This document shows positions 30,136-35,955 of a DNA stretch of 64,000 nucleotides, in pieces. The translations under genes and the position numbers were made by a program. The notes beneath the pieces are model-generated. The model was not told where the DNA came from and made no database searches. It saw only the letters and a list, made by a program, of their open reading frames with translations. The first letter of the stretch is position 1, and each line of letters starts with the position of its first letter. This stretch comes from Acidobacteriota bacterium (GTDB lineage Bacteria; Acidobacteriota; Terriglobia; Terriglobales; SCQP01): NCBI GenBank assembly GCA_027459505.1, contig DAIDIE010000009.1:1-64000 (forward strand), given 5' to 3'.

Positions 30136-31260
30136 TTACAAGGCCACCTTTGCCCACGCCCCACTTTGGGCCGACGCTTCCACTGCGTCCAACACAGCGT
30201 TGCAGGCAAGTCCATCCTTAAAGTCTGGCCGCACTGGTTGATTTCCTTGCAGGGACGCCAGGAAATCGGCCATGGCATGGACAAAGGAGTGTTCATAACC
30301 GAGGATGTGCCCGTCTGGCCACCAATGTGTAATGTAAGGCTGATCCTTCTGGGTTACAAGAATGTTGTTCCAGCCTTGCAAGCGCTCCGGCTGCGTGCGA
30401 TCGTAAAACTCCAGTTCGTTGAGCCGCTCCAGGTTGAAGCGCAGGGAGCCTTTGGAGCCATTGATTTCTAGCATGAGGCAATTCTTGCGTCCGGTAGCCA
30501 GCCGGCTTACTTCAAAGGCGGCAGTGGTCGCTCCCACTTTGCCCAGAAACTGCGCCGAATCATCCACGGTGACTGGGGCGAGTTGTTCCGGCTTGCCGGG
30601 CAAGGGGCGCTCGGGAATCATGGTCTGGGTTTGCGCGGTCACCGCCTCCACTTGGCCGACGAGGAAGTGCGCGAGATCGACAATGTGGGCGCCCAGGTCT
30701 CCCAGGGCGCCGGAGCCCGCAACAGTTTTGTCCAACCGCCACAGGCGGGGAAACTTCGGGTCGACGATCCAGTCCTGCAGGTACTGAGCCCGGAAATGGA
30801 AGATGCGCCCCAACCGGTCCTCCTCGATGAGCTGCTTTGCAAAGCTGATGGCGGGCACGCGGCGATAGTTGAACAGCACCATGTTGCGGACGCCCGCCTT
30901 GTCGACCGCTTCCACCATGGCGCGAGCTTCACTGGCGTTGTTGCCCAGCGGCTTTTCGCAGATCACGTGTTTGCCCGCCCGCGCGGCGGCAATAGCGATT
31001 TCAGCGTGAGAATCGCCGGGAGTGACAATATCAACCACATCGATATCATCACGGGTGACGAGCTTTCTCCAGTCGGTTTCCACGCTGGCCCAGCCTAGTT
31101 CGGCGGCGGCCCGCTCCACGGCGGCGCGCGTGCGTCCACAGATGGATTGCAGGCGCGGCTGGCCCACTCCCGGAAAAAAGTGCGACACCTGCCGCCATGC
31201 GTTGCTGTGCGCTTTGCCCATAAAGGCGTAGCCCACCATGCCAATTCGAATTTCTGCCAT
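30136..31260 (-). CDS. Gfo/Idh/MocA-family oxidoreductase
   Basis: NAD(P)-dependent dehydrogenase acting on sugars, inositols or related polyols. 374 residues: a Rossmann start (IRIGMVGYAFMGKAHSNAW), the catalytic CEKPLGNN with its conserved Lys, and GALGDLGAHIVDLAHFLVG containing the conserved Asp and His of the substrate site. ATG 31260 follows AGGAG. It lies 39 bp downstream of a xylose-isomerase-like gene on the same strand, a usual pairing in polyol or glycoside catabolism. The specific substrate is unknown. Confidence 0.93.
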   Translation of the reverse strand: MAEIRIGMVGYAFMGKAHSNAWRQVSHFFPGVGQPRLQSICGRTRAAVERAAAELGWASVETDWRKLVTRDDIDVVDIVTPGDSHAEIAIAAARAGKHVICEKPLGNNASEARAMVEAVDKAGVRNMVLFNYRRVPAISFAKQLIEEDRLGRIFHFRAQYLQDWIVDPKFPRLWRLDKTVAGSGALGDLGAHIVDLAHFLVGQVEAVTAQTQTMIPERPLPGKPEQLAPVTVDDSAQFLGKVGATTAAFEVSRLATGRKNCLMLEINGSKGSLRFNLERLNELEFYDRTQPERLQGWNNILVTQKDQPYITHWWPDGHILGYEHSFVHAMADFLASLQGNQPVRPDFKDGLACNAVLDAVEASAQSGAWAKVAL

Positions 31261-31299
31261 TCATTTCTCCTGTGAGTGGCGGCCGCCGTGGTTGTGCCG

Positions 31300-32265
31300 C
31301 TAAGCCCACCAGACCTTGGGCTTTGGTTCCCGGATGATCAGTTGCCGTAGCAGGGTAGAGGCCTTTTCGAGGCCCTCATCCTGCGACATGAGGCTGTCTT
31401 CGTGCTCGATGCTGAGGACGCCATCGTATCCGGCCAGGCGCAGTGTGGAAATAAAGTTCGCCCACCAGTCCGCACCGTGCCCATAGCCGACCGTGCGAAA
31501 GATCCAGCCGCGATGGACTTCGTCCACGTACGGCTTGGTGTCGAGAACGCCGGTGCGGTTGCAAACCGAGTCGAAGATTTGGGTGTCTTTGGCATGGACA
31601 TGGAAGATTGCGCCCGCCTGCCCCAAAATACGGATCGCCTCAATCGGGTCGATGCGCTGCCAGAAGAGGTGGCTGGGATCGAAGTTGCAGCCGATGGCTT
31701 CACCGGCTTCCTGGCGGAGGCGAAGCATGGTCTCGGGGGAGTACACGACGAAGCCGGGGTGCATTTCAATGGCGACCTGGACACCGTGATCGGAGGCGAA
31801 GGCGGCCAGATCGCGCCAGTAGGGAATAACCTTTTGCTCCCATTGCCACTTCAGCAGATCGCTGTATTCCGGAGGCCAGGGGCAAGTGACCCAGTTGGGG
31901 TGTTGCGCCGTATCGCTGTCGCCAGGGCAGCCGGCAAAGTCGATGACCGTTCGTACCCCAAGCTTTTCCGCCAGCAGAATGGTCTGCCGGGTGGTGCCGG
32001 CAAAGGCTTCCCGGGTGCCTTGCTGTGGGTGGAGTGGATTGCCGTGGCAGCTCAGCGCGCTGATGCTGATGCCGCGGCTCTCCAACTCCGTGCGCAAGCG
32101 CTGCACCTGGGCGGGCTGCTCAAGCCAGCTCAGCTTGCAATGCGGATCTCCTGGATAGTTTCCTGTTCCCAACTCGACGGTGGTGAGCCCCAGGCCCAGA
32201 GCCTTGTCCAGAGCTTCGGTCAGACTGAGATTGCCCCAAAGGGCGGTGAAGACGCCAACCCGCAT
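31300..32265 (-). CDS. Sugar phosphate isomerase/epimerase (xylose-isomerase-like TIM barrel)
   Basis: 321-residue TIM barrel of the AP-endonuclease-2/IolE superfamily. Likely divalent-metal ligands are seen in order: Glu in VAIEMHPGF, Asp and His in NFDPSHLFW, His in FHVHAKD, and Glu in LSIEHEDS. ATG 32265 (MRVGVFTALWGN) follows a strong AGGAGG; the longer frame to 32523 is rejected. First gene of a two-gene leftward operon with the Gfo/Idh/MocA enzyme. Confidence 0.92.
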   Translation of the reverse strand: MRVGVFTALWGNLSLTEALDKALGLGLTTVELGTGNYPGDPHCKLSWLEQPAQVQRLRTELESRGISISALSCHGNPLHPQQGTREAFAGTTRQTILLAEKLGVRTVIDFAGCPGDSDTAQHPNWVTCPWPPEYSDLLKWQWEQKVIPYWRDLAAFASDHGVQVAIEMHPGFVVYSPETMLRLRQEAGEAIGCNFDPSHLFWQRIDPIEAIRILGQAGAIFHVHAKDTQIFDSVCNRTGVLDTKPYVDEVHRGWIFRTVGYGHGADWWANFISTLRLAGYDGVLSIEHEDSLMSQDEGLEKASTLLRQLIIREPKPKVWWA

Positions 32266-34620: not shown

Positions 34621-34626
34621 ACGCCT

Positions 34627-35955
34627 ATGAAATTTGCCTTGGTTCAGCCCAATTGGGACTTCTCCGGCTCGACTTACTTCGGGTGTCCGGAACCTCACTT
34701 TCCCTACGAGCTGCTGTTTGCGCGCCAGCAATTGCAGGCTGCCGGGCACGACGTGTTGCTCGTGGATGCGCATCTGGAAAACCTCTCGTTGTCAGCAGCC
34801 GCGGAACGGGTGCGGCGGTTTGCCCCCGAAGTGCTGGTGGTGACCACCGCGCCAAGCTATTTGTTCTGGCGCTGCCCACAACCCGAACTCCGGATTCCGG
34901 CGCAATGGATGCGGGGGCTGCGAGGCGGCGCTTTAGGAGTGGCAATTGGCCCCCATCCCTCGGCCACCCCGGAAGCGACGCTGGAAAAGTTGAATTGCGA
35001 TGTCGCGCTGCGCGGCGAGCCTGACCATGCGCTGGCCCGCCTGGTTAGCGAAGATTGGGCGCGGATTGAGGGCTGCTGCTGGCGCGATACGGAACGCACC
35101 GCCCGCTTTAGCGCCCCCGCTTCCAAATCAGGCGTACACCTCGATGCGCGCCTGGCGCAGACCAACATGGAAGAATTGCCGGCGCTGGCCTTCGAGGACT
35201 ATCCGCTCGAATTGCGGCAACATCGCCATCACGTCTTCACCGGCGCCGGACGCGGCGCGGAACTGGAGTTTGCCCGCGGTTGTCCCTGGTCCTGCAACTT
35301 CTGCAACAAGACGCTGTTTCGCAACAAGTTCCGGGAACGCAAGGTGGAAGCGGTCTTACAGGAGGCCGAGACGCTGGTTCGAGAGGGCTTCAACTACATC
35401 TACTTCATCGATGAAATCTTTGGCTGCGGGAAACGAACCCAGGCCTTGTTGGACGGGTTGGCGGAATTGCCGCTGACCATTGGCTGCCAGACCCGTATCG
35501 ATCTGTGGGATGAAGAGACGCTGGAGCGGCTGGGGCGGGCGCACTGCATTTCCATGGAATGCGGAATTGAATCGATCACCCCGGAAGGACGCGATCGCTT
35601 CCGCAAAGGCTGCCGCATGTCCACGGAGCGCATCGACGAACTGCTTCGCTTTGCGCGCCGCCACATTCCCTGGGTTCAGGCAAACCTCATCGCCAATGAC
35701 GACGACGATTTGCAGGCCATCGAAGTTTGGCGCAAAGGACTCATCGAGGCCGGCGTCTGGGCGTCCAAGCCGGTGCCGGTCTTCGCTTTCCCCGGCAGCC
35801 CGCTCTACGCGCAGTTGTTTGGGCCTCCCGACGATCAGGCATGGGAGCGGGCACACCAGCATTATCTGGCCATCAACAACGAGCGGGGCTACTACAGCGA
35901 CATCCAGAGCGCCTCGCCGGAGCCGCTGCAGGAACTCGAAAGCCGCCCGTCGTGA
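34627..35955 (+). CDS. B12-binding-type radical SAM protein
   Basis: 442-residue protein. The N-terminal Rossmann part (MKFALVQPNWDFSGSTYFG, HDVLLVDAHLE) resembles B12-binding domains but lacks an obvious DxHxxG. The radical SAM domain has the 4Fe-4S motif C219-PWS-C223-NF-C226, then YIYFIDEIFG and ISMECGIESITPEGRDRFRK. It starts 6 bp after the epimerase stop and completes a three-gene operon. Such enzymes often methylate or rearrange unactivated carbons; the reaction here is unknown. Confidence 0.88.
   Translation: MKFALVQPNWDFSGSTYFGCPEPHFPYELLFARQQLQAAGHDVLLVDAHLENLSLSAAAERVRRFAPEVLVVTTAPSYLFWRCPQPELRIPAQWMRGLRGGALGVAIGPHPSATPEATLEKLNCDVALRGEPDHALARLVSEDWARIEGCCWRDTERTARFSAPASKSGVHLDARLAQTNMEELPALAFEDYPLELRQHRHHVFTGAGRGAELEFARGCPWSCNFCNKTLFRNKFRERKVEAVLQEAETLVREGFNYIYFIDEIFGCGKRTQALLDGLAELPLTIGCQTRIDLWDEETLERLGRAHCISMECGIESITPEGRDRFRKGCRMSTERIDELLRFARRHIPWVQANLIANDDDDLQAIEVWRKGLIEAGVWASKPVPVFAFPGSPLYAQLFGPPDDQAWERAHQHYLAINNERGYYSDIQSASPEPLQELESRPS

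Follow-up and report, generated by a model that had tools for sequence, protein, structure and literature searches.

A methyltransferase, 2-epimerase and radical SAM operon in an Acidobacteriota genome, probably a detached part of a catalogued but uncharacterised glycan cluster

We analysed a stretch of 64,000 nucleotides (the window) that forms positions 1 to 64,000 of contig DAIDIE010000009.1 in the assembly GCA_027459505.1 of a soil Acidobacteriota bacterium. Three adjoining genes on its forward strand, encoding an S-adenosylmethionine (SAM)-dependent methyltransferase, a nucleotide-sugar 2-epimerase and a cobalamin-type radical SAM enzyme, are referred to here as the triad. Back to back with them lies a gene pair for an isomerase and a Gfo/Idh/MocA dehydrogenase, and a reading made earlier from the sequence alone had treated the five genes as one cassette. 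The features are as follows.

32537..33346, + strand: SAM-dependent methyltransferase of the TIGR04290 family, GTG start, 269 aa (assigned by NCBIfam score)
33343..34620, + strand: NAD-dependent nucleotide-sugar 2-epimerase ("SDR2"), a relative of cytidine diphosphate (CDP)-tyvelose 2-epimerase (45% identity to TaTyvE, 9rl0)
34627..35955, + strand: cobalamin-type radical SAM enzyme, TIGR04295 "B12_rSAM_oligo" (assigned by NCBIfam score; CX3CX2C at residues 219-226)
32266..32536, no strand: divergent intergenic region from isomerase to methyltransferase, bounded by ATG 32265 (-) and GTG 32537 (+)
31300..32265, - strand: xylose-isomerase-like TIM barrel (PF01261), probably a 3-keto-sugar eliminase/hydratase, judged to lie outside the system
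30136..31260, - strand: Gfo/Idh/MocA dehydrogenase, levoglucosan-dehydrogenase-like, judged to lie outside the system

All five open reading frames were confirmed at these positions and strands. The stop codon of the methyltransferase gene (TGA, 33344-33346) overlaps the start codon of the epimerase gene (ATG, 33343-33345) in an ATGA at 33343-33346, and 6 bp (34621-34626) separate the epimerase stop at 34620 from the radical SAM start at 34627, so that the gene layout described by the sequence-only reading was correct. The methyltransferase, epimerase and radical SAM reading frames are genuine genes, since they are backed by family scores, by matches to solved structures and by the recurrence of the tightly joined triad in relatives.

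In a profile search, the methyltransferase scored 336.9 bits against NCBIfam TIGR04290 (cut-off 300), and it is the single gene of this family in the genome. In relatives, the TIGR04290 gene is found either within a larger cluster or within the triad. The protein had earlier been called CmoB-like, and a distant likeness to the CmoB tRNA methyltransferase, in the SAM-binding core, does exist; membership of that family was rejected, however, as the protein is shorter and scores far under the cut-offs (68.7 bits against 209 and 64.5 against 275). Moreover, it has no Lys at the position aligned to Lys91 of E. coli CmoB, which we take to be a carboxy-SAM contact, and carries a conserved WFxN..TAPxHFLG motif in its place.

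The epimerase matches solved CDP-tyvelose 2-epimerases (nearest 9rl0 and 1orr, E 7e-90). The catalytic residues of this enzyme (PMC7851689, PMC13098431), namely Thr124, Asn125, Lys126, Tyr164 and Lys168 in TaTyvE numbering, are kept in 78-79 of the 79 family members, including the window protein, which also shares Gln205, Trp207 and Phe211 with TyvE; C2-epimerase chemistry is thus well supported by residue conservation. In contrast, Tyr203, which closes over the cytosine in TaTyvE (PMC13098431), is replaced by Glu in 79/79 members, and Trp210, a CDP contact in CDP-tyvelose 2-epimerase (PMC7851689), by His in 78/79. Trp207 and Phe211 are retained in the family, and the CDP-contact set Tyr203/Trp207/Trp210/Phe211 is thus incomplete. 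Further family-wide differences from TyvE are Met85 to Val, His191 to Met and Gly209 to Ala, and the window locus, unlike TyvE, is not accompanied by CDP-paratose genes. The divergent pocket residues suggest another nucleotide or sugar, and CDP as the nucleotide is doubtful. It should be noted that about 60 extra residues, rich in Arg, Ala and Pro (1 to about 62; 33343-33530), precede the Rossmann motif of the epimerase; this stretch varies in length among relatives, with uncertain start sites.

The radical SAM protein scored 551.9 bits over its full length against TIGR04295 (cut-off 400), and the three cysteines of the CX3CX2C motif (C219, C223 and C226) are invariant in 43 sequences. Its predicted fold (mean pLDDT 92.3) matches the cobalamin-type radical SAM enzymes TsrM, MgmA, AprD4 and OxsB, among which TsrM and OxsB are cobalamin-bound. 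The likeness to these enzymes extends to the CX3CX2C radical SAM core and an N-terminal Rossmann domain, whereas identity across the fold alignment is below 20% and the window family has conserved motifs of its own, APSYLFWRCPQPELR and GPHxS. The B12-binding domain PF02310 scored 31.7 bits, just below the Pfam cut-off of 32.1, and cobalamin binding is therefore likely but unproven.

We scanned a single genome for each species, found at least 373 loci with TIGR04295 relatives and derived the gene order from the best 80. Most of these 80 loci show the order methyltransferase, GH-like protein, SDR1, 2-epimerase (SDR2), radical SAM, GT4, CgA, CgB and CgC, where the last three are our labels for three CgeB-like glycosyltransferases (PF13524). 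Full clusters often add a nucleotidyltransferase (NTase) and a fourth CgeB-like glycosyltransferase (CgD). The GH-like protein matched no family above cut-off and is annotated as a beta-xylosidase in Azospirillum. The full cluster occurs in this fixed order in Acidobacteria, Rhizobiales, Azospirillum, Tistrella, deltaproteobacteria and cyanobacteria, and the annotated plasmid copies of Azospirillum and Tistrella match it, although the former lists one epimerase gene only. Such clusters in Azospirillum brasilense (plasmid p2), Tistrella mobilis (pTM1) and Terriglobus albidus share with the window the methyltransferase and radical SAM families, both over cut-off, and the 2-epimerase family. The sequence-only reading had pointed to similar sets in larger polysaccharide-type clusters, and the glycan-type clusters of the scan bear this out, the three genes being a real functional set.

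Neither a flippase, nor a polymerase, nor an ABC exporter is present in the annotated Azospirillum and Tistrella plasmid clusters, so it is normal for the system that the window has no transporter; this absence hints at an intracellular or membrane-bound product rather than an exported polymer. Both TIGR04290 and TIGR04295 are catalogued as hypothetical families (NCBIfam hypothetical equivalogs). A literature search by accession returned no paper naming either of them, and broader phrases retrieved unrelated work only.

A myo-inositol-1-phosphate synthase-like gene was observed in alphaproteobacterial clusters (L106, L107, L112, L115, L116, L118, L120-L123, L126 and L146), many of which add a histidine phosphatase gene, hinting at an inositol-containing acceptor in the alphaproteobacterial versions.

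The genes missing from the window locus were found elsewhere in the same genome. At G000:C10:14050-21134 (G000 being the window's genome), the genes GHx-SDR1-GT4-CgA-CgB-CgC are consecutive, in the order of the full cluster minus the window genes, with identities of 60% (GHx), 54-57% (SDR1), 35% (GT4), 46% (CgA), 52% (CgB) and 49% (CgC). The best CgD relative (C43:54354-55448) and an NTase relative (48%; C6:24323-25042) lie on two further contigs. GT4 and the three CgeB-like glycosyltransferases are thus not adjacent to the window radical SAM gene, but present in trans, and the triad forms an operon of its own, unlike in the full cluster. On its contig (C20, 105,533 bp), the triad is 32.5 kb away from the closer end, and the corresponding distance for the block on C10 is 14 kb; even with these two ends joined directly, at least ~46 kb would therefore separate the two loci. 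An assembly artefact was rejected as the cause of the split in the window, since this separation holds regardless of contig joining; several relatives likewise show no glycosyltransferases in flanks of 10 kb that lie within long contigs.

Detached loci were found in three forms in relatives, all free of glycosyltransferases: methyltransferase-epimerase-radical SAM (L048, L050, L051, L058, L060 and L180), methyltransferase-radical SAM (L049, L097 and L176) and epimerase-radical SAM (L056, L068, L071, L075, L079, L089 and L092). Co-occurrence of the three operon genes, the check that the sequence-only reading had named for itself, was observed, the triad being present in at least 6 related genomes. 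In 14 of the 14 other genomes searched that have a detached radical SAM locus, the glycosyltransferase block lies on a different contig. The methyltransferase gene heads this block when it is not beside the radical SAM gene, and is absent from the block when it is. TIGR04295 itself is present in 7/7 genomes of the window's family at ≥90% completeness. Across 396 Acidobacteriota genomes, TIGR04295 exceeded its cut-off in 7 and CgB (E < 1e-80) was found in 8, all 7 falling within the 8 (hypergeometric p = 3e-14, a value inflated by shared descent).

A tree of the radical SAM proteins places the triad and the methyltransferase-radical SAM forms together in a single group, the window's clade (support 100/99). 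Three changes are required to account for the epimerase-radical SAM form, and separation of the cluster therefore probably occurred more than once, although these changes can also be read as one gain and two losses. Two contigs labelled Rhodanobacteraceae (L077) and Verrucomicrobia (L088) carry radical SAM proteins that nest in Acidobacteriaceae on the tree, and are either misbinned or the result of recent transfer.

Since the missing genes are in the same genome, the block accompanies all 14 detached loci and the two parts co-occur in 7/7 cases in the phylum, we consider it likely that the operon at 32537-35955 represents the sugar-tailoring part of the TIGR04295/TIGR04290 glycan cluster, detached from the rest, and acts with the unlinked block on C10. 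The three enzymes probably tailor a donor sugar or a glycan for use by glycosyltransferases whose genes lie at another site. The data show the identity of the genes, their conserved partnership, the conserved catalytic residues and the fold class, and in the window locus a system that is catalogued, though uncharacterised, takes a new arrangement.

We infer the order of the steps, the substrate and the methyl groups of the end result as follows. A nucleotide sugar would be formed first, and the 2-epimerase would, as an optional step, invert it at C2 by way of an NAD-dependent oxidation that is transient. Next, the cobalamin-type radical SAM enzyme would alter an unactivated carbon, most likely by C-methylation or else by an AprD4-like diol dehydration, the TIGR04290 enzyme would O-methylate a hydroxyl, and the glycosyltransferases of the second locus would assemble the glycan. 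A wider proposal, which we advance tentatively, is that these genes could make up a new glycan pathway: a 2-epimerase of non-CDP nucleotide specificity would supply a sugar, and a B12-type radical SAM enzyme would C-methylate or dehydrate an unactivated carbon of it; the product might be a multiply methylated intracellular or membrane-bound oligosaccharide, common to soil acidobacteria, rhizobia and cyanobacteria.

The radical SAM step could differ from this scheme, with the model otherwise the same, if the enzyme, instead of being a C-methylase, acted as a diol dehydratase like AprD4 and produced a deoxy sugar. AprD4 heads its sequence matches in the PDB (4e-9), ranks among its best full-length fold matches (TM 0.63/0.62) and acts on an aminoglycoside sugar; we nevertheless regard this as somewhat unlikely, as the methylases TsrM and MgmA match the fold at least equally well and the score of the B12-binding domain stays marginally under its cut-off.

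Considerably less probable is the sequence-only reading of the triad as a compact, self-contained small-molecule pathway, in which the glycosyltransferase block would serve another purpose. The operon is tight and without glycosyltransferase or transporter, and members of the family have either the triad or the methyltransferase-radical SAM pair at a locus of its own. However, the block is present in every genome with a detached locus, it co-occurs with TIGR04295 in the phylum, and the dispersed genes belong to orthologous families of genes that are adjacent in full clusters; the cognate glycosyltransferases are on another contig of the same genome. The observation that no glycosyltransferase is present holds for the cassette itself, but not beyond it, as an unrelated GT2 gene (39355-40134) lies 3.4 kb downstream and the cognate genes are on C10.

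Several points weigh against our main explanation of a detached tailoring operon. Co-occurrence is partly a matter of vertical descent, and the p value therefore overstates independence. The eighth genome, G286 (L195; G286:C4:112514-113587), has CgB and a methyltransferase relative and no radical SAM protein over cut-off. The relatives are mostly draft metagenome-assembled genomes, similarity of the radical SAM protein cannot separate methylation from dehydration, and the literature searched holds no demonstrated product for any member of the system. Moreover, a sister genus (g216) and three deltaproteobacteria have generic SDRs only and no 2-epimerase, so this enzyme is not needed for the core product and is dispensable to the system. 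A hidden epimerase elsewhere in g216 was rejected: the best match there (35-37% identity) reaches at most 162 bits against ~370 for orthologues and is therefore a different SDR. In the genome of L124, the best epimerase match outside that locus (46%) carries two stop codons.

Parts that have become separated and yet persist together argue more strongly for joint function than does an operon by itself. The split also sorts the genes into those always kept (radical SAM, methyltransferase and GT4/CgeB-like genes) and the dispensable 2-epimerase; SDR1 was undetected in some glycosyltransferase blocks. Were such a locus judged by its neighbours alone, part of a pathway would be mistaken for the whole. 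The system is widespread, as the number of radical SAM loci indicates, and is known only as hypothetical families; the proposed action of the radical SAM enzyme on a glycan and the altered nucleotide pocket of the 2-epimerase are both open to direct test.

Turning to the divergent pair, the most likely start codon of the isomerase gene is ATG 32265, which has AGGAGG ahead of it and replaces the listed TTG 32523; about 271 bp therefore separate the divergent genes. A consensus scan, itself uninformative, found no sigma-70-like promoter in 32266-32536. The isomerase (PF01261) matches 8ro4, a 2-hydroxy-3-keto-glucal hydratase. The Gfo protein groups with levoglucosan and inositol dehydrogenases (4h3v and 6a3f in the levoglucosan dehydrogenase group), and scored 357 bits against NF052479 (LgdA), below the cut-off of 650. 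The two genes thus resemble enzymes of the levoglucosan dehydrogenase pathway (LgdA, LgdB1/B2), whose loci pair Gfo and PF01261 folds (PMC10066097). At 9 related loci and ~80 others, neither an isomerase nor a Gfo gene was found next to the triad. The pair is most simply a separate catabolic one, probably an unrelated neighbour with a role resembling 3-keto-sugar (levoglucosan-type) catabolism, and the five-gene cassette was rejected. A single divergently expressed sugar pathway of all five genes, for example with a common 3-keto or 2-keto sugar intermediate, would fit the shared intergenic region and the sugar-acting families of all five, but is very improbable given that survey of relatives and the resemblance of the pair to levoglucosan-type catabolism (PMC10066097).

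Among the other neighbours, a gene on the - strand at 37965-39203, named by eye from its sequence as S-adenosylmethionine synthetase-like, lies just downstream of the three SAM-using or sugar genes. This gene and the GT2 gene were rejected as partners of the triad, as neither has a match beside it in relatives. At 25010-27214 (-), a 734-aa, apparently secreted protein has no Pfam or NCBIfam match. Finally, the gene at 27326-30079 (-) encodes a hybrid histidine kinase whose N-terminal domain is ethylene-receptor-like (PF25487 ETR1_N, 113 bits) and retains a Cys-x3-His pair (CAGTH), of the kind with which ETR1 binds copper and ethylene.

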